From a virus, in IMG/VR virus record IMGVR_UViG_3300042898_000564, positions 1 through 26,457 of that record: 26,457 nt of DNA; one strand, given 5' to 3'. This document shows positions 4,279-23,588 of the stretch, piece by piece (positions within the stretch are counted from its first letter, which is position 1; each line of letters opens with the position of its first letter). The notes under the pieces are model-generated. The model was not told the DNA's origin, did no database searches, and worked only from the letters and a program-made list of their open reading frames with translations. The position numbers and the translations under genes are program-made.

Positions 4279-4336
4279 TGAATAGTGGCCAGTTATTCTA
4301 ACGCCGCTTAACTTTCACAACTTTTATTAATATAAT

Positions 4337-4354: not shown

Positions 4355-4358
4355 CTAA

Positions 4359-4748: not shown

Positions 4749-4769
4749 TTTCCTTTCGCGCTATCATGT

Positions 4770-4777
4770 ATAAATAT
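4770..4777 (-). promoter_or_regulatory. ATATTTAT octamer, candidate late promoter element
   Basis: The coding-strand context is ACTATATTTATACATG, 21 bases before the start codon of the 129-residue gene and just past the polymerase stop. It is the only member of the octamer set lying in the replication half of the window. Confidence 0.4.
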
Positions 4778-4779
4778 AG

Positions 4780-6129: not shown

Positions 6130-6148
6130 TTACCGAAATATAATATCA

Positions 6149-8966: not shown

Positions 8967-8969
8967 ATC

Positions 8970-11900
8970 TTATGCCCCTGTCTTTTGTACTGGTGTCTTT
9001 GACTTTTTACCTACTTTAACTGTATCCATAGAATCAAATAACCAGTTACCATCGGTATCTTTATTATTCGCGCCTTTGATGGACAATGAATATGCTCTAC
9101 CTCCTAATTGCGGACGATAATCAGCTATTACTGTATATCCTACACTTACATCTACTACTGTCGGTAATTGTTTAGCTAAGTTGTTTTCATCAACATCTTC
9201 TGCAATATCCCATGTAGCATCATCTGGTATTGAAATAGAAAAACTATTTAAAAAGCCTGGCGTCTCTTGAAATAAATGACCTAATGTTAATCTCATCATT
9301 GGACCTGATGCTCTTGCGGTTGAAAAGTCAGGCATTGTATAAGTAGCTAAATAATTTAACTTTCTCCAAATAGGAATCATTTCTGATCTAGATAATGCTG
9401 CGACTCTAAAAGTAAATGATACGGTTCGTTCAAATGACGTATAAATATATGAACCATCTGGCCTACCCATTATATTGATATTATTCCAGCCCGGACTAAA
9501 ATCGTCTGTAAATCCAGTTAATGTAGCACGGAATGCCATTGCTTGATTTTTTGCAACACCCAGAAAATAAAAATCAATTAAGTCTTTTGATGCTTCATAT
9601 ATATCTGATTTAATTCCAATATCAACTGCATTTATTTTATCTCCTTTAAAATTAGGATTTTTAGCTAATGCATTTTTATCATTACGTAAATCTGCTAATG
9701 AAGTTATGAATGAGCCTTTACCTTTTTGAGGTACTGACGTTTTAGCAGAATCTAATGAACCAAATCCATATGTCTTTTCTAATGTTTTTTGATATTGGGC
9801 ATTTGTAGAATCAGGATCAATACCTTCTCTTAACTTTCTAAAATCTAAAGCAACATTTGATTTACGTTTAGACTTTTTAGGTATTTGACCATATGAAGTA
9901 GTTTTCCAAGTTGCAATATCAGCTGATGAACCTTTTAAATTTAACCAATCATTTGATGTAGCATATCCCGGATCTTGAAATGATTTTAATTTTTTTCGTA
10001 ATCCATTAATATCAACATCTGTAATAGTTTGATTTGCAAACTCAGTTGTTGCAGCTTTTGTATCATTAAATAATGATGGAATGTAATTGTTTAAGTATTT
10101 ATTAAATAATCTATACTTAGCTGTATAATTACTTTGTTTAGCATTAGCAATTGCTAATTGACTAGTATTAACTACTCGCGATAATGTAGTAGAACCTAAT
10201 CCATATACTGATTGAGGCCCACCCCATGAATTATCAATAATTAAACTGTTATTACTTAGTTTATTTTTTAATTCGGTTAATCTATCACCGGTACCGGAAT
10301 TAGTATTAAATATTAATGTCTTAACGCGTATTGCATCTTCATATTTAATTATATTAATTGCACCATGTGCTGGAAATCGTAATCCGGTAGATCCGCCTGC
10401 TAATGACAATAATGATTTTAGACCTGTTTGAATTCTATTTAATCCATTAGGCCTAGTTAATCCTAATCCTACTTGTTTAGTAATCCATAAAAGACCTTTA
10501 GGTGATGCAGCAAATTTACCTAATCTAATAGTATCATATAATAATCTACTAGCTGCAGTAACAGCGCCTCCTCTAATTAATCCATCATCAAATGTACTAC
10601 CCCAACGTTGTGGTTCTAATCCATTTTGAATACCCCTTGTTATATACGGTTGTTTTATATAAGTAGGATTATATGATTCTAATTGAAGATTAAACTTTGT
10701 ATACTGATCATCAATCGGAGATGGTGATTTTCTAGTAACTGCCCAAGTACCTAAAATAGACTGTTGTGCATTTGACTTAACAGAATCTTCATATCTTTTA
10801 GTACTAGTGAATCCTAATGACTTAACTTTAGGAGATCCAGATCCTAATTGATTGTTTAATGAGTAATTACCTACTTGTAAAACTGACTTTCCTTTAATAG
10901 GATAAGTATATGTAGTACCATTAATACCTACAAATTTAGATGAATCATATTTAACTGTAAATCCTTTTGCTGCAGTATCTAAAATAAAATTAACCGCAGG
11001 TGGTATTATACCTTTCCATCTAGTACTATTAGGTTTGTTAAGTAATGTTTCGGACTTTAATAAAATATTTTCAGGATATAATTTAGTAGGAGTATACTTA
11101 CCAGGAGAAAACTTAGAAGGCAATGAATCTAAATTTAATTTAGATGAGTTTATAATTGGCTTCGTAAATTTAGTTTTTTGTGAATACACTTTTATTGTAT
11201 CTACATTAAACTTAGACTTATCTACAAATGACTTTGTAAATATACTAGTACCTGAATAAGAAGTTAATTTAGTTGTATCTAATTTAGATTTAAAAATATC
11301 TGGAGATTGTTTAATGTATCCGGCCTCTAATCTTTTTTGATCTACTTTAGTTACTTTAATGTCTTTAATATATACATTACCTGTTAATTTTGATAATGAT
11401 ACAGATACCGGTGATTTAATACTAATCTCTGATTGATTATTTTTAAGTACAGGTGTAGTATAATTAATAGTTTGTATATTGTTTTGTAATACAGGTAATG
11501 TATATCTAATAGTACTTGTTAATGTATTTTTAAGAATTGGTGTCTTAAATGCTATTTGCTGAATTAATTTGTTTATACTAACTACTTTCGTTCTTATATT
11601 ATCAGTTGGTTTACTAGTTAATTTAAGAATCGGTAATGTATAATTAATTAACGCAGATTGATTGTTTTGTAATTTTGGTGTAGTACGTTCAATTATTAAA
11701 TCTGATTGAATCGTAGTTATAATTGGTACAGTTAAATTAGATTCGACCGACGTATTAATTTGATTTAAATTGGACGAATAATTAACTGACGTATTTACAT
11801 TAGTAGTATCTACTTCTTTTATAGGTTGTACTACTGAATTTGGTGTATTAATAATTGCAGGTACTTTTATCGGAGTAGTAGCCATTGGCTGCGTAGTTGG

Positions 11901-11978
11901 TTTAGTACTACTAACCAAAGTATCTACTTTCATAGGCTTTCGAAATGAAGCCAAGTTTGATTTTAAATCTGTTAACAT
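8970..11978 (-). CDS. Large baseplate / tail-tube-initiator-like protein, 1002 aa
   Basis: Structural protein encoded directly after the tape measure, overlapping it by one base (TAATG). Only the C-terminal domain (about 800-975) has a recognisable style: FRATLTGFTDDFSPGW, then GRPDGSYIYTSFERTVSFTF, EMIPIWRKLNYLATYTMP, a SGPMMRLTLGHLF strand, and FSISIPDDATWDI. This is the tube-like beta barrel pattern seen in baseplate tube initiators and caps of contractile phages (the gp48/gp54 role). The N-terminal ~430 residues are unusual: rich in Ser, Thr, Asn and Lys, with degenerate repeats around TTPxLKNN and YTLPVL (about 94-190) followed by KFTKP, SKLNLDS and KFSPGKYTP-like phrases (about 255-305). 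That half looks extended or fibrous. The middle has GGPQSVYGLGSTTLSR (about 590-605). The tube-initiator role is inferred. Confidence 0.6.
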   Translation of the reverse strand: MLTDLKSNLASFRKPMKVDTLVSSTKPTTQPMATTPIKVPAIINTPNSVVQPIKEVDTTNVNTSVNYSSNLNQINTSVESNLTVPIITTIQSDLIIERTTPKLQNNQSALINYTLPILKLTSKPTDNIRTKVVSINKLIQQIAFKTPILKNTLTSTIRYTLPVLQNNIQTINYTTPVLKNNQSEISIKSPVSVSLSKLTGNVYIKDIKVTKVDQKRLEAGYIKQSPDIFKSKLDTTKLTSYSGTSIFTKSFVDKSKFNVDTIKVYSQKTKFTKPIINSSKLNLDSLPSKFSPGKYTPTKLYPENILLKSETLLNKPNSTRWKGIIPPAVNFILDTAAKGFTVKYDSSKFVGINGTTYTYPIKGKSVLQVGNYSLNNQLGSGSPKVKSLGFTSTKRYEDSVKSNAQQSILGTWAVTRKSPSPIDDQYTKFNLQLESYNPTYIKQPYITRGIQNGLEPQRWGSTFDDGLIRGGAVTAASRLLYDTIRLGKFAASPKGLLWITKQVGLGLTRPNGLNRIQTGLKSLLSLAGGSTGLRFPAHGAINIIKYEDAIRVKTLIFNTNSGTGDRLTELKNKLSNNSLIIDNSWGGPQSVYGLGSTTLSRVVNTSQLAIANAKQSNYTAKYRLFNKYLNNYIPSLFNDTKAATTEFANQTITDVDINGLRKKLKSFQDPGYATSNDWLNLKGSSADIATWKTTSYGQIPKKSKRKSNVALDFRKLREGIDPDSTNAQYQKTLEKTYGFGSLDSAKTSVPQKGKGSFITSLADLRNDKNALAKNPNFKGDKINAVDIGIKSDIYEASKDLIDFYFLGVAKNQAMAFRATLTGFTDDFSPGWNNINIMGRPDGSYIYTSFERTVSFTFRVAALSRSEMIPIWRKLNYLATYTMPDFSTARASGPMMRLTLGHLFQETPGFLNSFSISIPDDATWDIAEDVDENNLAKQLPTVVDVSVGYTVIADYRPQLGGRAYSLSIKGANNKDTDGNWLFDSMDTVKVGKKSKTPVQKTGA

Positions 11979-14365
11979 TATACTGCCCCGTATGAATTAT
12001 CTACTTTACCTACATAACTTCTATTCATTGTCTGAACTTTATCAATTTCATTAACTACTTTATTACCTATTTTAACTATAACTGGTTGGTTCATTGCAGC
12101 TGCAATTTGTTTAAGTAATGCAACTGTTTCTGAATCGCCCGATGATTGTTGATTGCCTCCAAATAAATTACCTAACATTGCTAATGGATTTGCCATATTT
12201 GAAGCTTCACCTAATCCAGTACCTGCTATTACTGTATCATCAGGTGCCAATTGATATGTACCTTTTTTACCTGATACCATTAACCCACCATCGGGTGCAA
12301 TTTGCGCATCATGTTCTTTTTTAGGTGTATCACCCGCAGCTTCTTTTGATTTATCTTCATTTAATCCTAACAACTTTAACGCCCAATCAGGAAGTAATCC
12401 TTTTATTTTATCTGTTGTCCATCCTAAAGCGTCTTCTGCCATCTTTTTAATACTCGGGAAAAATCCTTTAACTAAGTCAAATGCCAATGTAAATGGCCGT
12501 AATAAATATTTTATTATACCCGAGCCTATATCAGATAATCCACTAAGGAAATCTCCTTTAAATATTTTAACAATGCCTTTAATAATATCAAATGCCATTT
12601 GTATAGGAGCAAATGCAAATTTCATTAATGGGCCAATCGCAGGCAATATAAAATCAACTATCTCTGTAAGTGGATCTAAAATTTCCATCATCGGACCAGC
12701 AATTTTGCCAAATATAGCCATTACCTTATTACCCATTTCAGCTAATTTTTCTTGAGCAGAAGCTTGTTGTTGTTGAAGCACTAATTTTCTAGCTTCTTCA
12801 GCAGTCGTTGCTTGTAACTTAGCTAAATCTTCCTCTTTTAAATCTGATATAGACTTAATCTCACGACCCGATTCTTTCGATAAATCGTTTAATAGTTTTT
12901 GTTGCTCAGCGCCTTTTATTAATGCATCAACTTCCATATTAGCAGCTTTTGCAATAGCCTCTCGTTGGTATGGCGCCATTTTCATTAATTCGTCATACCC
13001 GCCCGCCTGCTTCATAATTTCTTCCATTGACTCATCAATTTTTCCATTTAAAGCTAATTCTCTTGCTTTATCTAGATTCATGTCTTTGCCAGTAAGAACG
13101 CGGGCTTCCATCTCAGCTGCAAGTGATCCTTCAATATCTAATAATCCATCTGTGATAGATTTAACTTCATCTAATGTCTTACCAAATTTTCTAGCAGTAA
13201 TTACTGCTTTTGTTAATTGGCTTATATTTCCTTTAAATGTAGCTTGAACTGCTTTAGAACTACTCGCAACATCTTTCATAACAGCCTTATAATTCATCAT
13301 ACCACCTGTCATTTCTTCAGTAATACCTTGAATTGCAACTACGTTTTGCTCCGCCGTCCTTCCGGATAACATCGCCATTCGTTGAAACATCGCTGCATCT
13401 TCGCCTGCTAATCCATATTGTTTAGTTAACAACACTTGCGTTTCGGCCATTTCAGCTGTTGCTAATTTTGCACTGCCTAATACATTAGCTAATTCCATAT
13501 ATGATTTAGACATTTCGCCAGCTGAAGCTCCAATGACTTTTGTATTTTCGGCTATGTCTAAAAATTCATGATGTAAATGTTCTGCTTCTTCGCGTGATAT
13601 TCCTAAACCACGTGCCATATCAGTAAGCTCTTGATCCATATCAAGTGCTTCCTTAATTAGTATTACCGCTGCGGCCGCGGCGATTGCATATGGATTAATA
13701 CTTTTTAATGATGTAACTAAACCTTTTGCTCCTTGTTTAAATCCTTTAAATCCCCCAATTAAATTGTCTTTAAAAGATGCTCCTTCTTTAGTAGCTCCCT
13801 GTAACGTTGCTGAAAAGGTTTTTGTTAAATCTTTTGCAATACGTTCTTTTAAGTCATCTACGCCTAATGCTTTTGATAATATACCGCCTACTACAGGAAT
13901 TGACTCAATTGAATGTTTAATATTATCAATAAATCCTAATGATTCTTCAATTTCATCGCCGTATTTTTCTTCTATAGCATGAATCTTTTGCTGCTGTTTT
14001 GCTATTTGTTCTTGTAATTTAAGTCGCTTTTTATCAGTTTCTAATTCTTTTAATTTAGCTTTTCCTATCTTAACAGCACTTTTTGTTTCATTTAATATAA
14101 ACCCATGTTCTTTTCGTTTATCCTTTAAATGTTCGCCTGATAAACGTTTAATTGCAATTGCATGTGATTTAACTACATTTTCATTTTTTTCAATGTCTGA
14201 TAAAATACCTAAACGCTGTTCATCTATTTTTAATAATTCAGCTGAATAATCAACGATATCGCCTAATACGTCAGATTCCTTTTCCTGTTTCTTAGCAAGT
14301 TGCTTCTTTAACGAAGCAATTTCCTTGGCTTGGTCTGCAATTAGTTTATCGTGGTCTTTAGCCAT
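11978..14365 (-). CDS. Tail tape measure protein
   Basis: Sets tail length during tube assembly and is held in the tube lumen. Features: an N-terminal coiled coil (about 1-140, nearly all Glu, Lys, Gln and Leu), a hydrophobic Ala-rich helix (INPYAIAAAAAVILIKEAL, about 223-241), a long helical middle (about 245-545), and a second hydrophobic block (about 560-640) with MEILDPLTEIVDFILPAIGP and FAPIQMAFDIIKGIVKIF. The C-terminus is Gly-rich and polar, then LLKQIAAAMNQPVIVKIGN. At 795 residues and roughly 1.5 angstrom per residue, a rule of thumb for other phages, the tail would be near 120 nm. It is flanked by the tagged 131-residue gene (TAATG overlap) and the large baseplate gene, with the gp26/frameshift gene just before: the standard chaperone-tape measure-baseplate order. 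T4 gp29 is the functional counterpart. Confidence 0.85.
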   Translation of the reverse strand: MAKDHDKLIADQAKEIASLKKQLAKKQEKESDVLGDIVDYSAELLKIDEQRLGILSDIEKNENVVKSHAIAIKRLSGEHLKDKRKEHGFILNETKSAVKIGKAKLKELETDKKRLKLQEQIAKQQQKIHAIEEKYGDEIEESLGFIDNIKHSIESIPVVGGILSKALGVDDLKERIAKDLTKTFSATLQGATKEGASFKDNLIGGFKGFKQGAKGLVTSLKSINPYAIAAAAAVILIKEALDMDQELTDMARGLGISREEAEHLHHEFLDIAENTKVIGASAGEMSKSYMELANVLGSAKLATAEMAETQVLLTKQYGLAGEDAAMFQRMAMLSGRTAEQNVVAIQGITEEMTGGMMNYKAVMKDVASSSKAVQATFKGNISQLTKAVITARKFGKTLDEVKSITDGLLDIEGSLAAEMEARVLTGKDMNLDKARELALNGKIDESMEEIMKQAGGYDELMKMAPYQREAIAKAANMEVDALIKGAEQQKLLNDLSKESGREIKSISDLKEEDLAKLQATTAEEARKLVLQQQQASAQEKLAEMGNKVMAIFGKIAGPMMEILDPLTEIVDFILPAIGPLMKFAFAPIQMAFDIIKGIVKIFKGDFLSGLSDIGSGIIKYLLRPFTLAFDLVKGFFPSIKKMAEDALGWTTDKIKGLLPDWALKLLGLNEDKSKEAAGDTPKKEHDAQIAPDGGLMVSGKKGTYQLAPDDTVIAGTGLGEASNMANPLAMLGNLFGGNQQSSGDSETVALLKQIAAAMNQPVIVKIGNKVVNEIDKVQTMNRSYVGKVDNSYGAV

Positions 14366-14760
14366 TATTTATCAAAGTTCTTTTTAAATAATTTTGTAGA
14401 CTTATTTTTAATGTTTTTAGTCCACTTAGAATATTGTTGCATGAATTCGTCAGTAGACATATCAGAACTAAATTTATAGCCATATTTCGTAGCTTCATCA
14501 TACATCTTTTCAGCTTCTTTAACTTGAGTCGCAGCGTCTTTTTCTAATTGAGCTAAATGTTCTGCTGTTAATTTAATTTGCGCTTGCAAATTTTTCCACT
14601 CTGTAGATTTTTTAATTTTTTCAGCATCTCGTTTAACTTTAGGAGTTAAAATAAGAGATATAATTTTATCTACTAGTCCTTCGACAATTAACGGACTATT
14701 TGAATAGTCGTACTTATTAACTTCTTCTGTTATAATAGATCTAATTTTAGATAGTTTCAT
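14365..14760 (-). CDS. Small tagged helical protein before the tape measure, 131 aa
   Basis: Unknown function. The N-terminus MKLSKIRSIITEEV fits the shared tag seen on five other proteins here (Met-Lys-x-x-x-Leu/Ile-Arg-x-Ile/Leu-Ile-x-x-Glu-Val). Unlike the others the tag lacks the closing Ala-Leu-x-Glu, but an (I/L)xE site, IVEG, occurs at 25-28. The rest is charged and helical, with a likely coiled coil about 40-85 (rich in Lys, Glu and Ala: KLTAEHLAQLEKDAATQVKE) and a strongly basic C-terminus (KNIKNKSTKLFKKNFDK). It overlaps the tape measure start (TAATG), so the two are translationally coupled. It has its own ATATTTAT octamer (14779-14786) 18 bases before the ATG. It may be a tail-assembly factor or a small virion protein; nothing decides between them. 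Confidence 0.75.
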   Translation of the reverse strand: MKLSKIRSIITEEVNKYDYSNSPLIVEGLVDKIISLILTPKVKRDAEKIKKSTEWKNLQAQIKLTAEHLAQLEKDAATQVKEAEKMYDEATKYGYKFSSDMSTDEFMQQYSKWTKNIKNKSTKLFKKNFDK

Positions 14761-14778
14761 CCTAGTCTTTATTCTTTA

Positions 14779-14786
14779 ATAAATAT
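14779..14786 (-). promoter_or_regulatory. ATATTTAT octamer, candidate late promoter element
   Basis: The coding-strand context is TTTGATATTTATTAAAG, 18 bases before the start of the 131-residue tagged gene. It would drive that gene, the tape measure and the coupled baseplate genes. Confidence 0.45.
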
Positions 14787-14794
14787 CAAATGTA

Positions 14795-15013
14795 TTATTT
14801 TCGAATAACTCGTTTAGGAGATCCAGGTGCTTTTGAATTAGCGTCTTCCTGTTTCTTTTTTTGCTCATCTAGAGCTTCTTGAGTTTTCTTTAAATAAAAT
14901 TTTCTAAGCCATATAGGCATGTTGTATACCTCGGTCCAGGTAAACCCTTTTCCGTAATATACTATATCAAATAATTGAGAATGCAGTATTGGCTTATACT
15001 CAGGACTGAGGCC
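14795..15013 (-). CDS. Frameshift extension of the gp26-family protein (no start codon of its own)
   Basis: A 72-codon reading frame, +1 (equivalently -2) relative to the upstream gene. It opens where that gene passes a run of seven T (15020-15014) and closes with TAA at 14797-14795. The frame contains a credible protein: GLSPEYKPILHSQLFDIVYY, then GKGFTWTEVYNMPIWLRKFY, then a charged tail (KKKQEDANSKAPGSPKRVIRK). The middle part resembles tail-chaperone extensions in other phages (Tyr-Asn-Met-Pro-x-Trp-Leu-Arg). Upstream in this frame there is no ATG, GTG or TTG before a TGA at about 15041, and the only internal ATG splits the conserved NMPIWL. It should therefore be made only as a fusion to the 287-residue product, in the manner of lambda G/GT. 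Alternative: initiation at a rare codon such as CTG or ATA. Confidence 0.72.
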   Translation of the reverse strand, partial: GLSPEYKPILHSQLFDIVYYGKGFTWTEVYNMPIWLRKFYLKKTQEALDEQKKKQEDANSKAPGSPKRVIRK

Positions 15014-15863
15014 AAAAAAAGTTAGTATCGATATTGAAACTCATATCCTCCTCGATATGAGCGCAATGGTTGCATTCAAATTCTACTTCAAATAATTGGT
15101 TAGGAGATACTTTATTAACTTCAGTTCTTAATGCTCTAGAATCCATTGCAAACAATTCATTATCTACAAAATGCATAATAAATGATTTATCTGTATTTCC
15201 ATCAACTGATAAAATTAAATGCTTTAATCTAGTAGTCAATTCTCTATCAATTCCGTCTTTTTTAATAGATTTTTTTAATGAATCTAATTCATTATCAATA
15301 CGCTTATCATCTCCCGTAGTTAAAATTTTAAATGTAACTTTTCTACCCGTCTGTGGTAATGTAAATTCAAATACATTAGGTGCAATCATTGTAGTAGTAT
15401 CAACTTCTTTAACCGGTAATTTAGTTAAGTCGATTGACATTTTAGTTTTTTCTTCGCACTTAGGACATGTTACTTCAATTGGATATTCTTTACCATATCC
15501 TAATATACGAGCAGCTACCATAATTCCGTTTTTATCGCCGATAGCTAAATCATTTAATCTAATATTAGATACAATCATTGACTGTAATAATTTGTCAATA
15601 ACTACACCTTGTTTAATTAAATTCTGAGAAGTTAAAATGTCTTCTTCTTTGGCTGTCATGTACTTCATTTCAATTTTACCTTCAGCTAATAAATTACCTT
15701 CGGAATATAAAACTCCTTTAGATGGTAATTCGACTATTTCTGTTGGGAAATTGTATTGACGAACTTCGGCTTGATCAAATTGCTGAAGAGCAAATGCTTT
15801 TAATTGGTCATCTGATAATTCTGATGACGATCCTTTTGGGTAAGAATTTGGAACTGTTGTCAT
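15000..15863 (-). CDS. 26: gp26-family baseplate / tail assembly protein with zinc ribbon
   Basis: Member of the T4 gp26 'base plate protein' family. The signature is visible: VELPSKGVLY (44-53), MTAKEEDIL (69-77) and RILGYGKEYPIEVTCPKC (119-136). Two Cys pairs, C133/C136 and C264/C267 with H269 next to them, look like a split zinc ribbon. The ending TNFFWPQS resembles the usual FFWP end of the family. T4 gp26 is described as a baseplate hub or hub-assembly protein; in this gene order (after tube, before tape measure) the position is that of a tail assembly chaperone. The last codons cross a T7 run that can feed ribosomes into the 72-codon frame at 15013-14795, giving about 355 residues. The start has its own octamer 13 bases upstream, and a terminator separates it from the preceding unit. 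Confidence 0.83.
   Translation of the reverse strand: MTTVPNSYPKGSSSELSDDQLKAFALQQFDQAEVRQYNFPTEIVELPSKGVLYSEGNLLAEGKIEMKYMTAKEEDILTSQNLIKQGVVIDKLLQSMIVSNIRLNDLAIGDKNGIMVAARILGYGKEYPIEVTCPKCEEKTKMSIDLTKLPVKEVDTTTMIAPNVFEFTLPQTGRKVTFKILTTGDDKRIDNELDSLKKSIKKDGIDRELTTRLKHLILSVDGNTDKSFIMHFVDNELFAMDSRALRTEVNKVSPNQLFEVEFECNHCAHIEEDMSFNIDTNFFWPQS
15014..15020 (-). promoter_or_regulatory. T7 slippery run, candidate programmed frameshift site
   Basis: The coding strand reads AAC TTT TTT TGG in the gp26-family frame, 18 bases before its stop. A +1 slip (skipping one T) or a -2 slip (re-reading TTT) would continue as GGC CTC AGT into the 72-codon downstream frame. A simple -1 slip would not reach it. 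Confidence 0.6.
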
Positions 15864-15876
15864 AAACTTATTTAAT

Positions 15877-15884
15877 ATAAATAT
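15877..15884 (-). promoter_or_regulatory. ATATTTAT octamer, candidate late promoter element
   Basis: The coding-strand context is TTTATATATTTATATTAA, 13 bases before the gp26-family start. It follows directly on the U tract of the terminator at 15894-15921 through the spacer ACTG. Confidence 0.45.
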
Positions 15885-15893
15885 ATAAACAGT

Positions 15894-15921
15894 AAAAAAG
15901 ACCCCGGTTAAAGGGTCTTTT
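15894..15921 (-). terminator. Intrinsic terminator after the 156-aa tagged gene
   Basis: On the coding strand a 9-bp perfect stem AAAAGACCC / GGGTCTTTT with an 8-base loop (TTTAACCG) ends in a run of six T (15899-15894). It lies 36 bases past the stop of the 156-residue gene and just ahead of the octamer for the gp26-family gene. Confidence 0.85.
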
Positions 15922-15956
15922 AATATTTACTGCTTACTACCTTTACAATATATAAT

Positions 15957-16427
15957 CTATAAGTATATCTCTGTTTGTATATATACATCAGGCATAATCC
16001 ATGCTCGTCTAACTTCACGGGGATGATTTCCTCCTGGGTCTCTGAACGGATCTTTAAATTTACTTTTTTCAATTTTTAGTGTATTTAAAAAGTCTTTAAT
16101 TGTTTCTGATCCGGTATACTTTAATTTGTTTATCTTATACAGCGTTTCAAGAGAATCAATATTATTTTGTTTTAGCATGTTAGCAATTGATATTGCCATT
16201 TTAGGTGCACTGGGCCTATACAATTCTTTGCCGTCTCTTCTGCGTTGATCGAAAATTTTATAATATGTAGCTGGTAAAAAAGTTAATCTTAAATACTTTA
16301 TAACATCAGCTGACTTAGTAAATTCGTCTAAAAATGAATTATCATTTTCTTTTACTAATTTAGTAGATTCATTAATAGCGTTACGAACTTCAGTTTTAAT
16401 CAGGTTTCTTAATTCTTGTATTTTCAT
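15957..16427 (-). CDS. Tagged protein of unknown function, 156 aa
   Basis: The N-terminus MKIQELRNLIKTEV is the shared tag, ending in an INE/S site at residues 18-21 and followed by VKE at 25-27. The remainder has no family I recognise. It is mostly helical and basic (KYLRLTFLPATYYKIFDQRRRDGKELY; SIANMLKQNNIDSLETLYKI), with a Pro-rich basic stretch DPFRDPGGNHPREVRRAW near residues 124-142. There is no signal peptide or membrane segment. It stands alone between an octamer 50 bases upstream (16478-16485) and a strong terminator. A packaged virion protein is plausible if the tag is a targeting or maturation signal; that is inference. Confidence 0.75.
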   Translation of the reverse strand: MKIQELRNLIKTEVRNAINESTKLVKENDNSFLDEFTKSADVIKYLRLTFLPATYYKIFDQRRRDGKELYRPSAPKMAISIANMLKQNNIDSLETLYKINKLKYTGSETIKDFLNTLKIEKSKFKDPFRDPGGNHPREVRRAWIMPDVYIQTEIYL

Positions 16428-16477
16428 ATTTTTATTTCTATACTATAAAGATAATATATATTTTTCGTAATTCCTAA

Positions 16478-16485
16478 ATAAATAT
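16478..16485 (-). promoter_or_regulatory. ATATTTAT octamer, candidate late promoter element
   Basis: The coding-strand context is CAATATTTATTTAGGAA, 50 bases before the 156-residue tagged gene, the longest spacing of the set. It lies just past the stop of the 178-residue gene. Confidence 0.38.
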
Positions 16486-16493
16486 TGTTTTTT

Positions 16494-17030
16494 TTATAAA
16501 TCACCTGTTTTGCCCTTGAAAAGAATATCTGATTTCTTAAGGCCTTGTGTATTTAACCATTTACCTAATTCATAATTCATATTAGGTATAGGTTCATTTT
16601 CGTTACCGGGTGTTTTTAATTTAGGTAATAATACAGTATCTATAAACTGTTTTTCTATCGTATCATCTAATATAATAGATACTTCAGGATCTAATCTAAT
16701 TGCATCCCAAAATGGAGTCGTTAATTGTTTAAATTCTGAACCTTTAGGATTTTTTAGCTCATCGTTCGAAACTGTTTTACCTAATGCAAATAAAGCTGAT
16801 GCAACTGTTTTAATGTCTTTAATATTATCATATACATCTAATCCTTTTTGTATAATACTAATACCCGGCACTAATGACATTCCAAATTTACCTAATTTTT
16901 TTAATGAACTAACAGCGTCCTGTTCATTAGCCTTACCTACAATTACTTCAAATGCTTGTTTTACTTCGCCCCATGTAGGTTGCGTATCTTCTAATAAAAG
17001 TTGTTCTGCTATAGGTTTAAGCTTGATCAT
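16494..17030 (-). CDS. Unknown helical protein, 178 aa, with a different N-terminal peptide
   Basis: Not a family I recognise. The N-terminus MIKLKPIAEQLLLEDTQ is a short amphipathic, Leu-rich segment ending in LLED. It is not the common tag of its neighbours but has similar style and could be a second type of targeting peptide. A moderately hydrophobic Gly-containing stretch (GKFGMSLVPGISIIQKGL, about 47-64) and KTVASALFALGK (about 74-85) could associate with membranes or be a buried helix hairpin. The C-terminal half contains PFWDAIRLDPEVSIILDDTI and KWLNTQGLKKSDILFKG. It overlaps the upstream 113-residue gene by 14 bases, so it belongs to the ferritin transcript. Confidence 0.7.
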   Translation of the reverse strand: MIKLKPIAEQLLLEDTQPTWGEVKQAFEVIVGKANEQDAVSSLKKLGKFGMSLVPGISIIQKGLDVYDNIKDIKTVASALFALGKTVSNDELKNPKGSEFKQLTTPFWDAIRLDPEVSIILDDTIEKQFIDTVLLPKLKTPGNENEPIPNMNYELGKWLNTQGLKKSDILFKGKTGDL

Positions 17031-17358
17031 TTGAAGCTTGTTTTAATACACCTTTTAATTTACTAGCTATTTGAGTAAAGTCTTGTTCTGTAATACCAAA
17101 TGCAATTGCGACTGCGCCTAATAAAGCAACTCGTTGAGCATTATTTTTTAATGACTTAACAGCTGTCGGATCTTCAATTAAATCTATTACTTTAGCTCTG
17201 ATAGAACTGTCAATAGCTTTAATAGCCATATTTAAATTTTTAATGACTTGAGGATCTTGTATTTTATTACCGTCAGGTCCTACAGGAATAATATCTACTT
17301 CATTTAATGCAGATACAATTTCTTCTTTGATTAATTTTCTTAATTCAGATGTTTTCAT
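17017..17358 (-). CDS. Tagged protein of unknown function, 113 aa, downstream of ferritin
   Basis: Begins with the best tag of the set, MKTSELRKLIKEEI, running into ALNE at 17-20, an (L/I)xE site. After the tag: a Pro/Gly linker (VDIIPVGPDGNKIQDP), then two or three helices, including an Ala/Val-rich hydrophobic one (RVALLGAVAIAFGITEQDF, about 76-94). No known domain. The start codon abuts the ferritin stop (TAA immediately followed by ATG), so production should be coupled to ferritin, and the 178-residue gene overlaps its 3' end. If the tag marks virion cargo, this could be a partner or carrier for ferritin; nothing in the sequence proves that. Confidence 0.75.
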   Translation of the reverse strand: MKTSELRKLIKEEIVSALNEVDIIPVGPDGNKIQDPQVIKNLNMAIKAIDSSIRAKVIDLIEDPTAVKSLKNNAQRVALLGAVAIAFGITEQDFTQIASKLKGVLKQASNDQA

Positions 17359-17880
17359 TTAATTAAAATATGTTTGTTCAAAATATAATACTTCAAAGTT
17401 ATTTTCTACATTTACTAGCATTGCAGCATTTAATAGATCTGAATATTCAATTACAGACTCTGTTTGACCTTCTCTCAATTCACGTAAAAAATCAAATGTA
17501 GCTATATCAGAACTAAATAAATCTTGTGAGTCGTTATTATAAGCTTCGAACAAAGAATACTCTAAAGTATATGCTTTATTGACTATGTCGATTAGGTTAT
17601 CGAACGTAATATTAGGCTTAATCGATGGCAAAGTAGGGTATACATTCCAATCTACTAAATACTTTTGAACCTTTTCAGCATGGGTTAATTCATTAGCAGC
17701 TTCTTGTGCAAAGAATGCAGCTGCTTTTAAATATCCTTCACTAGCACACCAGTTATGTGCATTTCTGTAAAAGTAGTGAGCGGTATATTCGTCTTTTAAA
17801 CGATCAGTTAATTTTGAAACCGTATCTGATGATAATGTTTTTGGTGTTTTAATTTCAGATTGAGATACTTGCTTTATCAT
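17359..17880 (-). CDS. Ferritin-like iron-storage protein
   Basis: Four-helix-bundle ferritin expected to oxidise Fe(II) and store iron in a protein shell. It is 173 residues; bacterial ferritins are ~165. Ferroxidase-type residues fall at the right spacing: E31 with Y38 (helix A, DEYTAHYFY), E64 and H67 (helix B, ANELTHAEKVQKYL; 33 residues after E31, as in E. coli FtnA E17-E50/H53), E107 (helix C, YTLEYSLFEAY) and Q139/E141 (helix D, FLRELREGQTESV). The position matching FtnA E130 is Ser and E126 is Gly, so the third iron site is probably altered. A 15-20-residue N-terminal arm precedes helix A; it is not the common tag. It heads a transcript with the tagged 113- and 178-residue genes. A Dps-type assignment is disfavoured because the ligands lie within one bundle. 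Confidence 0.88.
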   Translation of the reverse strand: MIKQVSQSEIKTPKTLSSDTVSKLTDRLKDEYTAHYFYRNAHNWCASEGYLKAAAFFAQEAANELTHAEKVQKYLVDWNVYPTLPSIKPNITFDNLIDIVNKAYTLEYSLFEAYNNDSQDLFSSDIATFDFLRELREGQTESVIEYSDLLNAAMLVNVENNFEVLYFEQTYFN

Positions 17881-17886
17881 ATAATA

Positions 17887-17894
17887 ATAAATAT
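17887..17894 (-). promoter_or_regulatory. ATATTTAT octamer, candidate late promoter element
   Basis: The coding-strand context is GTTTAATATTTATTATTAT, only 6 bases before the ferritin ATG, the shortest spacing of the set. If it is a -10-like element the ferritin transcript would be leaderless or nearly so. Confidence 0.4.
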
Positions 17895-17902
17895 TAAACA
17901 GT

Positions 17903-17928
17903 AAAAAAGCCCCTGCAAAGCAAGGGCT
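17903..17928 (-). terminator. Intrinsic terminator after the 77-aa tagged gene
   Basis: On the coding strand the outer stem AGCCC/GGGCT (5 bp) and inner stem TGC/GCA, separated by one mismatch and closed by a TTT loop, are followed by a run of six T. It is joined through ACTG to the octamer ahead of ferritin. Confidence 0.82.
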
Positions 17929-17954
17929 CCTTAATATATTTTTGATTTTATTCT

Positions 17955-18188
17955 TTAATAACCTTCCGAGGCACCGGCATCTTTAATATCAATAATTAAA
18001 GAAGCTAATTCATTGTAATCAAATTCTCCTCCAGTTGTACCAAGATAATTTTCTAAAGCTATAACAGCTTCTTTAAATTCACCAGAAGGTTGAATTATTT
18101 TTAAAAGCTCACCTTCACTAAGTTGATTTTCGTTAACTGCTTTACGAACTTCAGTTCTGATCAAGTTTCGTAATTCTTGTAGTTTCAT
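17955..18188 (-). CDS. Small tagged acidic protein, 77 aa
   Basis: The first 20 residues are the shared tag (MKLQELRNLIRTEV, ending in AVNE), with a second (L/I)xE-Gly site, LSEG, at 23-26. The body of ~50 residues is acidic and helical (KEAVIALENYLGTTGGEFDYNELASLIIDIKD), ending DAGASEGY. No known domain. It lies between the homing endonuclease upstream and a terminator downstream, with its own octamer 18 bases before the ATG. The short body could mean it is a naturally small internal protein, or a remnant shortened when the endonuclease gene arrived next door; the clean promoter-like and terminator elements favour the first. Confidence 0.72.
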   Translation of the reverse strand: MKLQELRNLIRTEVRKAVNENQLSEGELLKIIQPSGEFKEAVIALENYLGTTGGEFDYNELASLIIDIKDAGASEGY

Positions 18189-18206
18189 GCTTCTTATAAT
18201 TTTAAT

Positions 18207-18214
18207 ATAAATAT
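18207..18214 (-). promoter_or_regulatory. ATATTTAT octamer, candidate late promoter element
   Basis: The coding-strand context is CCTGATATTTATATTAA, 18 bases before the 77-residue tagged gene and immediately past the stop of the endonuclease gene. Confidence 0.45.
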
Positions 18215-18218
18215 CAGG

Positions 18219-19034
18219 CTATTTTAAAACGCCTATTAACTGTTCAATACATGCTAATCGATTATTAACTATATCATTTTCCCAGAATCGAATCAATTTA
18301 TAACCTTTAGATTCTGCTAATTGATTTTTTAACTTATCTAATCCTAAATTCTTTTTCTGAGTATTGTTTAAAGTATCTTCTGTATATTTGATAGGATTTG
18401 CATGCCAATAATCTCCGTCAATTTCTATTAATGTATTTATACTAGGTACATAAAAATCATATTCAAATCCATCTACATGATACTGATGAGTAAATTCTAC
18501 ATTTAATGATTCTAATATACTAGCAAATGTATATTCTAATTTCGATGGATTACCTTTTAAAATTTCTTTTCTATTACGAGCTAATGTTTCTAACAGTATT
18601 TTTTTATGCTCTTCTGACTTTGGCTTACCTTTTAATGCTTTTGATATCTTTGCTCGACGTTTAGGATCTGCAGCTGTAATTCGAATCTTTTCTAATTCTT
18701 CACCTTCATAAACTTTTCCTTTATTCCATTGAGATAATTCGCCGGATCCGAATCGTGTCTTTCTAGTCTCTCCTGATTTTTTAGCTCCTTTTTCAGAATA
18801 AAATCCTCCGTTCACTCTAGCTGCATGTCCTTGAATATACTCACCAAAACCAAATGTAGAAAAATAATTTAACTTTTCATTACAGCCGCATTTACATATA
18901 GGCCATTCTCCGTTATAATGTATATTAACATATGTTTGAGCACCGGAGATTTTGTGAGTTCTAGAATTGTGGTTTTGTAACCCTTTGTATGAATCGAATT
19001 CTCGATTACATTCTTTACACGTAAATTTGTCCAT
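18219..19034 (-). CDS. Free-standing EDxHD (VSR-fold) homing endonuclease with zinc finger and NUMOD3
   Basis: Probable selfish DNA endonuclease. Modules in order: a classical C2H2 zinc finger (C6, C9, H22, H27), a second Cys cluster CKCGC (47-51) followed by a GH at 69-70, a NUMOD3-type DNA-binding helix (RAKISKALKGKPKSEEHKK, 127-145), then a VSR/PD-(D/E)xK-like nuclease. In the nuclease, E167 (SKLEYTF), D193 (YDFYVP), H211 (IEIDGDYWH) and D233 (LDKLKN) follow the E-D-x-H-D spacing of the I-Bth0305I group. The end, GYKLIRFWENDI (244-255), is typical of VSR-like proteins. The gene lies between tail tube and a tagged gene with no intron visible, so it is free-standing, like T4 seg and mob genes. 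Its own octamer lies inside the terminator hairpin upstream. The alternative of a repair VSR enzyme is unlikely given the finger and NUMOD3. Confidence 0.85.
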   Translation of the reverse strand: MDKFTCKECNREFDSYKGLQNHNSRTHKISGAQTYVNIHYNGEWPICKCGCNEKLNYFSTFGFGEYIQGHAARVNGGFYSEKGAKKSGETRKTRFGSGELSQWNKGKVYEGEELEKIRITAADPKRRAKISKALKGKPKSEEHKKILLETLARNRKEILKGNPSKLEYTFASILESLNVEFTHQYHVDGFEYDFYVPSINTLIEIDGDYWHANPIKYTEDTLNNTQKKNLGLDKLKNQLAESKGYKLIRFWENDIVNNRLACIEQLIGVLK

Positions 19035-19077
19035 AAAAAAATTCCTTATACTATTATAAATATAAGGAATATTTTTT
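19035..19077 (-). terminator. Terminator hairpin after tail tube, with embedded octamer
   Basis: A perfect 10-bp inverted repeat ATTCCTTATA / TATAAGGAAT (19041-19050 and 19061-19070) with a 10-base spacer. On the coding strand it is followed by a run of seven T reaching the endonuclease ATG. It ends the tail tube transcript. The ATATTTAT octamer (19063-19056) overlaps one arm and the loop. Confidence 0.75.
19056..19063 (-). promoter_or_regulatory. ATATTTAT octamer within the terminator hairpin
   Basis: The coding-strand context is CTTATATTTATAATAG, 21 bases before the endonuclease start codon. Termination of tail tube transcripts and initiation of the endonuclease transcript would use the same bases. 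Confidence 0.38.
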
Positions 19078-19124
19078 AAAATAAAAAATGATTATGTTAT
19101 TTTATTAGAATAACGTAGTCGTAC

Positions 19125-19613
19125 TTAAAATTGCAATATTGCGTAATCGTATTTCAACGTAAGAGTAATATTAATAGCATCCTCAGTTGAAAAATCAAAA
19201 TCTCCAAATTGAGCATCTCCAATATAAGCACCTTTTAAAGTCCATTCTTCAACTTTATCACCCACAGGTCCTAATGCATTGAAAGTAATGTCTTTCTTGT
19301 AAAAGTCAGAATAACCATCTCTACCAGTAACTGATTCATGTGATAAACGAATCCACTCCATTACTGCTTGTGCAGCTGAAGGAACTACTGGATCATATAA
19401 TGTAATAGATACATCATTCCAACGACCTTTTCCTTTTAATTTTCTTTCTACGTTGATATGATCTAAAATTACGTCACCGAAAGTAATGCTAGGACGATTA
19501 GCTGCTTTAATTAAATAAGAAGGAATTCCTTCAATGTACATTATAAATCTGTTAGCTACCTTTGGTTCAAAAGCGGTAAACATCACCTCACTTGGATCTA
19601 ATAATTCTGCCAT
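19125..19613 (-). CDS. 19: Tail tube protein, gp19 family
   Basis: Major subunit of the inner tail tube through which DNA passes. At 162 residues it is the same size as T4 gp19 (163). The gp19 fold is suggested by the N-terminal ANRFIMYIEGIPSYLIKAANRPS, the middle RWNDVSITLYDPVVPS and AVMEWIR, and the C-terminal strand pattern WTLKGAYIGDAQFGDFDF then INITLTLKYDYAIL. It is encoded two genes after the sheath, with two tagged genes between. A hairpin terminator follows the stop and an octamer lies 23 bases before the start, so this abundant protein appears to have its own transcript. Confidence 0.92.
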   Translation of the reverse strand: MAELLDPSEVMFTAFEPKVANRFIMYIEGIPSYLIKAANRPSITFGDVILDHINVERKLKGKGRWNDVSITLYDPVVPSAAQAVMEWIRLSHESVTGRDGYSDFYKKDITFNALGPVGDKVEEWTLKGAYIGDAQFGDFDFSTEDAINITLTLKYDYAILQF

Positions 19614-19636
19614 AATTTTATATGATTATATATGTT

Positions 19637-19644
19637 ATAAATAT
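19637..19644 (-). promoter_or_regulatory. ATATTTAT octamer, candidate late promoter element
   Basis: The coding-strand context is TTCATATATTTATAACATA, 23 bases before the tail tube start codon. Confidence 0.45.
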
Positions 19645-19650
19645 ATGAAT

Positions 19651-20403
19651 TTATTTTTTCTTATTTGCTTCTTTAATCTTAGACGAATTGTATTGTCTAA
19701 TACTTTCTGTTTTTGCAAATCTTCGTCCGCCGGCTTCTTTGATTTTAGTTCTCATTGCATTTGTAGATTCAACTACTTCACCTTTTGTTTTATCAAATTC
19801 ACCTTTTTTAATTAAACCATGAACTATAAAGTTTGTGCGTGGTTGTTTTGTTAAATACATTACTGTTTTGATTGCATCATTTTCATCATCAACATTATCA
19901 ACACCCCTAATGTATCTAAACTTGTATTGTTTTTTAGTTTTTTGATCTAATACAATATAACCATCATATTGTCTAGACATATCAGCTTCATTAACTACTG
20001 ACTCGCCCATGGATGCTTTTGCGTTATCATAAATTGACTGCAACCAGTCTTTAAATTGTCCTGGTTCTCCAGCCTTAGATAAATCATGATGTGTCTTTAT
20101 AAATTCAGTTACGAATGATTTAAAGTCTTTTGCTTCATGAGCCATTATGTCAATATCTGACATAGATGCTTCATTGATAGATTCATACATTCCAGATTGT
20201 CTTAGTTTTTGTCTAAATGCTGGAATTGATTCTGCCCAAGTTGTTACAGCTTCAACTGCACCTGAATTGTCTTCAAAGAAATCCATTACATCTGAATACC
20301 CTAATACTTCTACTAATTCTTCTAAACCAGAATCACCGCTGTATTCTTGTAATGTTTTCTTTATAGATTCTCTTATTAAATCTCTTAATATTTGTTCTTT
20401 CAT
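19651..20403 (-). CDS. Tagged polyprotein-like protein with several protease-type sites, 250 aa
   Basis: I chose the ATG at 20403, which gives the shared tag (MKEQILRDLIRESI...TLQE); an upstream in-frame ATG at 20451 would start inside the preceding gene and is rejected. The tag ends TLQE at 17-20. Further sites of the form (I/V)xE then a small residue occur at INE/A (76-79), VNE/A (137-140), VVE/S (210-213), IKE/A (221-224) and IKE/A (243-246). T4 prohead protease gp21 cuts after (L/I)xE, usually before Ala, Gly or Ser. Cutting would give pieces of about 58, 61, 73, 11, 22 and 5 residues. Two begin alike (ASMSD, ADMSR), and residues 140-210 look like a small beta domain (YDGYIVLDQKTKKQYKFRYI). 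No known family. It follows the 210-residue tagged gene by 4 bases. Confidence 0.75.
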   Translation of the reverse strand: MKEQILRDLIRESIKKTLQEYSGDSGLEELVEVLGYSDVMDFFEDNSGAVEAVTTWAESIPAFRQKLRQSGMYESINEASMSDIDIMAHEAKDFKSFVTEFIKTHHDLSKAGEPGQFKDWLQSIYDNAKASMGESVVNEADMSRQYDGYIVLDQKTKKQYKFRYIRGVDNVDDENDAIKTVMYLTKQPRTNFIVHGLIKKGEFDKTKGEVVESTNAMRTKIKEAGGRRFAKTESIRQYNSSKIKEANKKK

Positions 20404-20407
20404 CTTA

Positions 20408-21040
20408 TTATATTTTAGTTTGCATTGCCATAGATATGTCCTTAAGGTCATTTTTTAATGTATTTACATTGTATTGACCACCTGCGATAATTTCATAAAT
20501 TATCTTTATTTTTTTACTGTTCTTTTCAACAGACTGCGCATACTTTTTCATGTAATTATTTTTTTCTACTTGCTCAGCAAAGGCTTGCGTAAACTCATCA
20601 AATGATTTTGATTTGCATTGACTTGATAGGTCTTGAGCCGTTTGAGCGTTAAATACTTCAAAGAAATACTCTAATGCATTCTTCATGTCATATGTAGAAT
20701 CATTTAATTCTATTTTTGCTAAACCTGCGGCTCCATATACTAACATTCTAGCGCCTATATAAGGCAATAATTGAGTAGCTAATGCATACTTGGTTCTTCT
20801 AGGATAAATTTTTGAATATCCAATTGGAGATCCTATTACTGCATCTACATCAAACCATACTTTATAATGATCTTGTGGTCTAGAATTTTCCCATGCTCCG
20901 TCAGATAATTGACCTAAAATTTCAGCGTTAAATAAATTAAGCTGAGATTGGTTTTTAACAGTTAATGTACCGTACTTAACTTCCGTTAAAGCTTGTTTAA
21001 CCGATTCTTTTATTAAATTTTTTAATTCAAAAAGTTTCAT
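20408..21040 (-). CDS. Tagged protein of unknown function, 210 aa, after the sheath gene
   Basis: Starts with the shared tag MKLFELKNLIKESV ending in ALTE (17-20). The body contains a compact-looking domain: LNLFNAEILGQLSDGAWENS (34-53), then HYKVWFDVDAVIG, IGYSKIYPRRTKYALATQLLPYIG and a hydrophobic segment ARMLVYGAAGLAKIEL (about 97-112). The C-terminal ~70 residues are Lys/Gln-rich helices. The GQLSDGAWEN phrase looks like a conserved motif, but I cannot name the family. It begins a two-gene transcript with the polyprotein-like gene; a terminator lies upstream, after the sheath, and an octamer lies 17 bases before the ATG. Position between sheath and tube is unusual for non-tail genes. Confidence 0.75.
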   Translation of the reverse strand: MKLFELKNLIKESVKQALTEVKYGTLTVKNQSQLNLFNAEILGQLSDGAWENSRPQDHYKVWFDVDAVIGSPIGYSKIYPRRTKYALATQLLPYIGARMLVYGAAGLAKIELNDSTYDMKNALEYFFEVFNAQTAQDLSSQCKSKSFDEFTQAFAEQVEKNNYMKKYAQSVEKNSKKIKIIYEIIAGGQYNVNTLKNDLKDISMAMQTKI

Positions 21041-21122: not shown

Positions 21123-23588
21123 TTATTGACCGAAAGAAGCTCCGGTTGGGAGAATGTTAAAGTCAATAACAATAAATTCAGCAGTCTTAGTAGGTTGTAA
21201 AAAGATTTGACCATACATAATATTCCTGTCAATCAAGTCAGGAGTGTTATTAGTTTCATCCATTACTACTTTGAAAGCATATAATCCTTGTCTTTGTTGA
21301 ATAGACTCTAAATAAGGGTTAACAATATTTAAGAATCTGTTTCTAGTAGCAGCGGTATTTTGTTCAAATACTAAGTATTTAGTAGCTGATGCAATATACT
21401 TTTTAACTGCAATTAAAAGACGACGTACATTGATTCTATCTAATGCACTTGGCTTAGCTTGTAATGTCTTTTGACCCCAAACAGCAACACCTACACCTGG
21501 GAAGGTAGCAATTGGGTTAACACGACCATCATATAAATCATCTCTCTCAGCGTGAGTTAATCTAGAATAAACATCTGTTACTGAAGTTAATCCACCTCTG
21601 TTTAATCCTGCAGGTGCATACCATTCAGCTGATACTTTATCATTAAATGCTAATACTCCTGGAATAACTACTGAAGGTGGTACCCATGTTGGTTTATTTG
21701 CATTGGTATCCATAATTTTCACCCATGGATAATAAGTAGCTGCATAATTATTGTCTACTGCACTAACTGCATTGGTAGCGGTAGTAATATTATCTGTAAT
21801 ACTTGTATTATCATATATTAAGAAAGCATCGCCTCTATCTAATACCATTGAACTTGCATAGTCAATTACCGAAGGATGTAATGTATATATTACACCTGGC
21901 ATTGCTACTAAATTAAAATCGTATTCATCTGGATTAGATAAAACATCAATGGCATCTTTATATACTGAAAATCCTGCAGCAGAAGTAGATGATAAATCAA
22001 ATCCTTGTGTATTTGCAGCAACGATTTCAGAACCAACTAAAGATCTTCTATTAGGTTGAATTCCATCAGCTCCACCTTGGAACGGAACAACAAACTTACG
22101 AGTTTCAATTGAAGTATTCGAAGTTAAATCAACTGAACCAGAATAAGCTATAGCAGTTGTAGGATAACCTGCATTTGCTGATTGATTATAACTAGATAAT
22201 AAGAAAGTTGTATTTACACCTGTTGTAGAACTTACTACCGGAATAGGTTTCAAATAGTTCCAGTTATCATTAGTTGTTAATGAATAATCAAATCCAAATG
22301 CAACTCTTTTATTGTAAAGACCATTTACATCTTGTGAAGTTACAAATGTAGCAGCAGGAACGTTACTTACCGTCGACGGTAATGAATTGTACAATGCAGC
22401 ATGACCAAAAGGAACTAATTCAGAAGAATAAACTCCTTTGTCTACATTAGAATCCATTTCTACATAAACATATTTAGATTTGTTTGAATAGTTACCATTA
22501 ATAATTACTTTACCATTAGAGAATGTTTTGTATCTGTCTCCAATTACACGAGCAATGTATCTAGGTGAATTAGGATCTAAGTTAACATTATCATATGATT
22601 CTAATACATTTGGTCTATTATCTGAATCTTGAGAAGTAAATGGAGAACCTAATAACTGCAATTTGGTTTGGTCAACAGCTCTAATTGTTACTGAGAATGA
22701 ACCATACTCTGAACCAGCTACCGATCCTGCAGGTTTAATATTTGATACAATTGCTTTAACTTCATAGTTAGAATAAACACCATCTGCGATAGTATGTAAT
22801 TTAAACAAGTTAAAGTTAGTGTTGTTAACTGTTTGTGAAATAACCCAAGGAGTAGTAGCTTCTTTATAAGCTTCTCTAAAGTCTAAATCAACAGTTGTTA
22901 ATGACATTGATACAAATGTAGTAGCAGACCCAGAATACATTTGAGCTGCTCTAGTTTCAAACATATTGTATAAATACACAGGATCTTTTGTAGATTGTGC
23001 TTTTAATCCTAATGACTTAGCAATGTAATTTGTAGCGCTAGGATTTAATGATGCAGATACATATGTACTTATAAAATTTGAAGTACCAGGGAATGTAGCA
23101 GAATCAACTGTAAATACTCCAGATACAATTAAATTTGCAACACCTGAGCTAGTTGATACAGTATCTACAGTTGATAAACTAAATAAATTAGTTGTACCAT
23201 TGTAGAAAGCTGTTGTTTCTGATAAAATTTGTGAAGGATGTAGAAGAGCAACTAATGAACTTGTTACAGCTCCATTAGAACCTGAATAGGTAGCAGATAA
23301 AGCAACTACTTTACTTACTTTGTAACCATCATCTGGTAATGTTCTTACTACTGTTAATTGACCTGAATTTGCTAAATACTCTTTTGCAGCGTATGGCAAA
23401 TAATAATTCGGATTGGTATCACCGAAAACTTGTGTGAATTCACCAAAGGAACTTACTGTGGTTGGTACACCTGCCGGGCCTTTAACTGTAGGACCAATAA
23501 ACGCAGCACCAATCGCAGCAATTCCTTGTGGTAAATAAGATAAGTCTTTTTCTTCGGTAAATACACCTGGGGATACTAGTTTTTCCAT
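21123..23588 (-). CDS. 18: Tail sheath protein, gp18 family
   Basis: Contractile sheath subunit that drives the tube through the host envelope. The N-terminus SPGVFTEEKDLS (6-17) is the classic sheath start, followed by AAFIGPTVKGPAGVPTTV and LPYAAKEYLANSGQLTVVR. The conserved C-terminal domain has NPIATFPGVGVAVWGQKTL, RINVRRLLIAVKKYI and KYLVFEQNTAATRNRFL. The length of 821 residues is well above T4 gp18 (659); the extra length lies in Ser/Thr/Asn-rich, beta-type middle domains (about 120-480), which are normally surface-exposed. A terminator follows and an octamer lies 34 bases upstream, so it is a single-gene transcript. Confidence 0.95.
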   Translation of the reverse strand: MEKLVSPGVFTEEKDLSYLPQGIAAIGAAFIGPTVKGPAGVPTTVSSFGEFTQVFGDTNPNYYLPYAAKEYLANSGQLTVVRTLPDDGYKVSKVVALSATYSGSNGAVTSSLVALLHPSQILSETTAFYNGTTNLFSLSTVDTVSTSSGVANLIVSGVFTVDSATFPGTSNFISTYVSASLNPSATNYIAKSLGLKAQSTKDPVYLYNMFETRAAQMYSGSATTFVSMSLTTVDLDFREAYKEATTPWVISQTVNNTNFNLFKLHTIADGVYSNYEVKAIVSNIKPAGSVAGSEYGSFSVTIRAVDQTKLQLLGSPFTSQDSDNRPNVLESYDNVNLDPNSPRYIARVIGDRYKTFSNGKVIINGNYSNKSKYVYVEMDSNVDKGVYSSELVPFGHAALYNSLPSTVSNVPAATFVTSQDVNGLYNKRVAFGFDYSLTTNDNWNYLKPIPVVSSTTGVNTTFLLSSYNQSANAGYPTTAIAYSGSVDLTSNTSIETRKFVVPFQGGADGIQPNRRSLVGSEIVAANTQGFDLSSTSAAGFSVYKDAIDVLSNPDEYDFNLVAMPGVIYTLHPSVIDYASSMVLDRGDAFLIYDNTSITDNITTATNAVSAVDNNYAATYYPWVKIMDTNANKPTWVPPSVVIPGVLAFNDKVSAEWYAPAGLNRGGLTSVTDVYSRLTHAERDDLYDGRVNPIATFPGVGVAVWGQKTLQAKPSALDRINVRRLLIAVKKYIASATKYLVFEQNTAATRNRFLNIVNPYLESIQQRQGLYAFKVVMDETNNTPDLIDRNIMYGQIFLQPTKTAEFIVIDFNILPTGASFGQ

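Follow-up and report, generated by a model that had tools for sequence, protein, structure and literature searches.

The window, by which we mean the whole 26,457-base stretch analysed here (an IMG/VR record that comprises this stretch only, without head genes), encodes six proteins with a common N-terminal segment that is probably a removable capsid-targeting leader, functionally like the capsid targeting sequence (CTS) of phage T4 but different in sequence. As judged by comparison with related phages, this leader is modular, is conserved as protein, ends sharply at (L/I/V)xE and can give way to other leaders while the junction persists. As an amphipathic helix of some 17 residues that attaches to the prohead scaffolding core, it would carry otherwise unrelated proteins into the prohead, where cleavage by a gp21-type prohead protease would fall just behind the glutamate of its (L/I/V)xE end. 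The mature protein would then stay in the head and could enter the host along with the DNA, where it might have a role. The occurrence of a tag ending at a protease-type site on about 120 protein groups of related aquatic phages is what suggests reading it as a removable address label for loading into the head. If this is correct, what is known from T4 is a single instance of a packaging-signal system that is wider and exchangeable.

The window and its tagged genes

The window derives from a T4-like phage, with sheath, tube, hub, exonuclease, UvsX and single-strand-binding genes that match PHROGs. Judged by the sheath protein, its nearest named relatives are Microcystis phage Mel-JY01 (55%), the 484-kb uncultured phage LR756508 (41%) and Flavobacterium Immutovirus. 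The window gave no nucleotide match to named phages, and a search for relatives with the tape-measure-like protein as query found none. Near the window end, a gp13-like ORF (25324-26268, 314 aa) has a TTG start and is shorter than the versions in relatives (384-389 aa); its start or frame may be misjudged.

A sequence-only reading had proposed that six proteins share an N-terminal segment, and that five of the tags end in LNE, INE, VNE, LQE or LTE at residue 20. Both observations hold: the six ORFs are present, all on the minus strand and with unchanged starts (Table 1), and five have these endings, the sixth (14760) keeping the first half of the tag only.

Table 1. Leaders and leader-gene block in the window
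Feature	Position	Strand	Gene and remarks
20-residue leader MKLFELKNLIKESVKQALTE	20981..21040	(-)	ORF 20408-21040, 210 aa, no assigned function
20-residue leader MKEQILRDLIRESIKKTLQE	20344..20403	(-)	ORF 19651-20403, 250 aa, no assigned function; homologue L007:2869
20-residue leader MKLQELRNLIRTEVRKAVNE	18129..18188	(-)	ORF 17955-18188, 77 aa, no assigned function
20-residue leader MKTSELRKLIKEEIVSALNE	17299..17358	(-)	ORF 17017-17358, 113 aa; mature part begins VDIIPVGPDG
Different 14-residue leader MIKLKPIAEQLLLE	16989..17030	(-)	ORF 16494-17030, 178 aa; absent from the sequence-only reading
20-residue leader MKIQELRNLIKTEVRNAINE	16368..16427	(-)	ORF 15957-16427, 156 aa, no assigned function
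27-residue leader MKLSKIRSIITEEVNKYDYSNSPLIVE	14680..14760	(-)	ORF 14365-14760, 131 aa; adjoins tape-measure-like gene; first half of tag only
Leader-gene block	14365..21040	(-)	Between tail sheath 21123-23588 and tape-measure-like gene 11978-14365
Tail tube	19125-19613		Inside leader-gene block
Hub	15000-15863		Inside leader-gene block

The 210-residue protein has a close homologue, L007:2229, with leader MKLSELKNLIKESVKQALSE. For the 250-residue protein, the program-made ORF begins at 20451, but the likely start is the ATG at 20403, because the upstream gene has its stop at 20408. The N-terminus of the 14760 protein is MKLSKIRSIITEEV, and its family has a conserved glutamate-glycine junction at residue 27 (LIVE followed by G).

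Could the resemblance be fortuitous? With a tag profile built solely from 82 tags on other contigs, the window being left out, the six starts take the top six places among the 302 candidate starts that the window offers (40.9, 39.9, 30.3, 26.6, 14.9 and 1.0, rank 7 scoring -16.8). Across 200 shuffled window proteomes the best score per proteome had a mean of -4.5 and a maximum of 10.4, which five of the six starts exceed, 14760 being weak by score alone. Chance is ruled out by score for these five, and by the family alignment for 14760. An earlier profile, which contained most of the tags it scored, gave most tags about 38-57 bits against a maximum of 2.8 over 42,737 internal windows of one relative. 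At the DNA level, identity between tags is 50-68%, with one pair at 85%, compared with 22-37% over the following 60 bases; selection on DNA or RNA instead of protein is not favoured, given the mostly 50-68% identity of the tag DNA and the unrelated upstream regions.

The slot between sheath and tape-measure genes is also occupied by leader genes in relatives G003, G004 and L062 and in LR756508. Two genes within the block of the window deserve mention in their own right. One (17359-17880) encodes a ferritin-like protein (PF00210, 1.9e-18) without a leader, flanked by two leader genes, and homologues in G001 and L212 are located elsewhere. The other (18219-19034) is an HNH/homing-endonuclease-like gene, with the tail tube gene on one side and a leader gene on the other; as homologues occur in the same block of G001 and also in G004, homing may contribute to shuffling of the tail/leader region around it.

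Distribution of the tag

Tagged proteins were collected from 80 loci around related sheath genes, from 99 stretches that fit a degenerate DNA pattern for residues 1-14, and from pieces of three larger relatives. The 210 distinct proteins fall by mature part into 121 groups (phmmer E<1e-3, single linkage), a number that depends on the threshold and that distant homologues would reduce. Their consensus is MKxSE(F/L)RKLIREE(V/I)RKVLNE.

The 99 stretches matched by the DNA pattern are all from viral contigs, compared with a single match in 257 Gb of bacterial and archaeal genomes. That match is on a 3.2-kb contig with genes similar to those of tag-bearing phages, and a bacterial origin of the tag was rejected on these grounds. 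The tag is absent from Mel-JY01 and T4, and a tblastn search of named phages with the bare 20-mer and two cargo proteins, which diverged tags could escape, found none. We found no paper describing the tag in a literature search that was without most subscription-journal papers and preprints; a text search for the tag sequence returned only unrelated papers, and the papers found on capsid targeting sequences are mainly on T4, P1 and giant phages.

The tag ends at a protease-type motif

Because the 210 proteins were picked with a profile that covers residues 15-20, 97 N-termini picked on residues 1-14 alone serve as the clean test of where the tag ends. Among these, [LIV]xE lies at residues 18-20 in 87, and at any other position from 15 to 30 in six at most; E20 is present in 94%. 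The same glutamate is found in 50 of the 60 tags from the initial search, which used an expression for residues 1-14. Over the 210 proteins and 121 groups, conservation falls from 3.05 bits at residue 20 to 0.67 at residue 21 and about 0.2 beyond. E20 is lacking in 31 of the 210, most of which have the motif somewhere in residues 17 to 27. At residue 21, A, E, G, S and N are weakly favoured, and V at P3, seen in 17% of tags, extends the T4 motif (L/I)xE. The leader holds a second possible site, I10-x-E12.

By hydrophobic moment the tag is an amphipathic helix (0.53 at 100 degrees, compared with 0.26 for the next segment), with a net charge of about +1.9. A Sec-type secretion signal was considered and rejected, as the tag is charged throughout, with K, R or E predominating at positions 7, 8, 11, 12, 13, 15, 16 and 20, and lacks the uncharged hydrophobic core that precedes a small-residue cleavage site in such signals.

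Leaders are exchanged while the junction is kept

The 19 orthologues of the 17017-17358 protein carry leaders of several classes (MKxxELRKLIREEI...LxE, MNPxEFKRLLKEFAPxxxLxE, MDHVEFKRLLKEFAPGVMVLKE or an 86-residue leader), and despite this the glutamate before the mature part, E20 in the window, is invariant. The mature part typically reads (A/V)(D/E)(I/V)IPxGPDG, and an additional homologue in G004 has MTRIKLKGLIKE followed by ADVVPTDPTG.

Such replacement is seen in other families too: orthologues swap the tag for unrelated leaders of 8-86 residues, usually with the junction glutamate kept. In ten families with tag-less homologues, [LIV]xE falls within two residues of the junction in 23 of 33 tag-less homologues, where about 11% would be expected, counts to be read bearing in mind that homologues within a family are not independent and that E and L are common residues in these proteins. 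By family the motif is so placed in six of ten, including family 50, which is a poor case; in the other four it is not found that close, and the end of family 15 is IR(T/K)E, not [LIV]xE. The family of the 14365 gene (n = 22) has leaders of 8 to about 40 residues, and a nearly invariant glutamate (E27), followed by G, S or T, precedes the mature domain; the Mel-JY01 homologue begins without a leader.

Links to the head

The 26-kb window fragment contains no gp21-type protease. Relatives G001, G002, G005 and Mel-JY01 have one above the Pfam cut-off, that of G001 being encoded at C1:93282-93896, and T4 gp21 residues H85, S140 and D168 are invariant in the relatives' enzymes; by extension, the window phage would encode a prohead protease outside the fragment. 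The relatives' major capsid proteins have AKQ(L/I)(V/I)xE at the position of the T4 gp23 cut, often with V at P3.

The tag had been described as encoded among tail genes, which is true of the block in the window, but it is not confined there, since in relatives tagged genes stand beside gp21 and in distal regions. A tagged gene directly follows gp21, in the prohead-core operon, in three loci (L194, L119 and L134), and in L166 tagged genes flank the gp21-capsid block on both sides. G001 has tagged genes not only in its tail block but also at 51 kb and 165-173 kb. The crowding of leader genes in the tail block might reflect joint transcription in one late unit. In G001, (L/I)xE is over-represented at the N-terminus, where 38 of 194 proteins have it, compared with 17 and 22 in two internal stretches; Mel-JY01 shows no such excess (25 of 207 at the N-terminus, 22 and 28 internally).

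The suggestion that the tag is a modular maturation signal is thus well supported by comparison, through the 121 groups, the sharp (L/I/V)xE end, the exchange of leaders, gp21 in larger relatives and tagged genes in the prohead-core operon.

Alternative explanations

If the signal is modular, need it lead to the head? The leader helix might instead load small proteins into the tail tube or bind a tail-assembly chaperone, with exit via the tail. Leader genes do crowd among sheath, tube, hub and tape-measure-like genes, in the window and in the four relatives listed above, and genes of the 14365 family adjoin the tape-measure-like gene as a conserved feature. Against tail targeting stand the tagged genes directly after gp21 in the prohead-core operon and those far from the tail block in G001, and (L/I/V)xE, at which the leader ends, is the motif of a protease active in proheads; we know of no tail protease with that specificity. 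We consider tail targeting improbable. For the 14365 family itself, a tail protein fits at least as well, because of the tape-measure-like neighbour and the leaderless Mel-JY01 homologue, so this member sits less comfortably as head cargo.

An uncleaved docking helix, one that binds a membrane, a replication or transcription complex or another protein and remains attached, would suit the amphipathic character and positive charge of the segment as well as cargo without known function. It leaves unexplained why conservation ends at (L/I/V)xE and why unrelated leaders have a common junction, and we regard it as quite improbable. That the tagged proteins are simply old paralogues, with mature parts diverged past recognition and an N-terminus without separate function, might be argued from those that do group by their mature parts; with orthologues exchanging leaders, and conservation falling abruptly at residue 20 over 121 groups, common descent by itself is scarcely credible. 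A removable capsid-targeting leader remains our preferred explanation.

Comparison with known targeting sequences

Internal proteins of T4 are directed to the core by leaders of 10-19 residues, which gp21 cleaves off behind (L/I)xE (PMC9026906). The T4 proteins ipII and ipIII served as a positive control: they share MKTYQEFIAE followed by A and are otherwise unlike. The tag resembles the gp21-removed CTS of IPI, IPII, IPIII and Alt in being N-terminal, 10-20 residues in length and borne by otherwise unlike proteins, in ending at (L/I)xE, often followed by a small residue, and, as far as the larger relatives show, in occurring in phages with a gp21-type protease. It differs in being longer (the consensus above compared with MKTYQEFIAE), in tolerating V at P3, in its presence on far more protein groups, and in the several leader classes per genome, and its targeting and cleavage are predicted ones. 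A relaxed tag pattern had no match in T4, and the resemblance to the T4 CTS is loose and by eye. Since it is like the CTS in its apparent function but the sequence family differs, we class the tag as a probable variant of the CTS kind and not as a member of the T4 family.

In the giant phages phiKZ and SPN3US, N-terminal propeptides of inner head and ejection proteins are cut after glutamate by a distant gp21 relative (PMC5694885). There too, some diverged proteins have similar N-termini, but the propeptides are mostly longer than 100 residues and borne by few proteins, whereas the tag has about 20 residues and is found on some 120 groups.

In LR756508, as in the window, leader genes stand between sheath, tube and hub, with leaders such as MRLSERKLRRIVKEEISRVLRE and MRLKESQLRNVIRQEIQNALTE as well as short ones. 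Its consensus, M[RK]LxExxLRKIV[KR]EEIxxVLxE, has diverged from the window tag and is missed by the DNA pattern of the tag. At least ten long-leader genes with this consensus, and several short-leader genes, lie at 1243-9359 and 26695-38454 of this phage (L214), many of them among sheath, tube and hub.

Further leader classes

The 14-residue leader of the window (Table 1) belongs to the class MIKLKPIAEQxLxE followed by A. It is conserved in 18 homologues, with the equivalent of E14 in at least 90%, then mostly A. In the more distant lineage L062, four tube-to-hub genes (15556-17317) share the leader MNSKEVAEKFRRKYVLQE or close variants (class MNSKEVAxKFRRKYVLQE), followed mostly by G or A. In the cultured Flavobacterium phage immuto 2-6A, whose host is Flavobacterium sp. 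LMO8, KNV73_gp080 has the N-terminus MKKSQLRQIIKE followed by ALDAS, and KNV73_gp082 has MRLLELLRE followed by AKEAIED. An N-terminus ending in MQKLAGI(I/L)xE or AARLQKLAGILKE recurs in G001 (101399-102463), immuto 2-6A (L005 1265-1729), L144 and L176, and may be an additional leader class.

A wider and more tentative possibility, on balance doubtful, is that aquatic T4-like phages have an open packaging code. Several interchangeable leader classes per genome (the 20-residue tag, the short MIKLxDLLxE, MNPxEFKRLLKEFAPxxxLxE and the lineage-specific MNSKEVAxKFRRKYVLQE) would fill the head with many small proteins, of a fast-changing repertoire, that are to be delivered to the host, the classes perhaps being sorted by place or time and the sheath-hub slot being the entry site for new cargo.

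Cargo

What might such leaders carry? Searches of Pfam and PHROGs with 117 tagged representatives gave no confident match beyond a few weak or unnamed ones, and structure prediction for two cargo families had mean pLDDT of 58 and 53. If the leader works as proposed, a 20-residue sequence rule is enough to recognise the proteins with which uncultured phages enter their hosts, and many proteins without an assigned function become candidate injected effectors or anti-defence proteins.

Leader proteins with a functional hint belong mostly to the short leader class and not to that of the 20-residue tag. One from L140 is poly(A) polymerase- or CCA-enzyme-like, and others have weak HAD-like and cytidylyltransferase-like matches. 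A short-leader protein of G001 is ADP-ribosyltransferase-like (PF15633, 2e-5, just above the cut-off), and a leader-bearing protein of LR756508 has a weaker KptA/ART-like match (6e-5, below the cut-off). T4 Alt is an ADP-ribosyltransferase that is packaged in the head and cut by gp21 (PMC9026906), a parallel to these ART-like leader proteins that is suggestive only.
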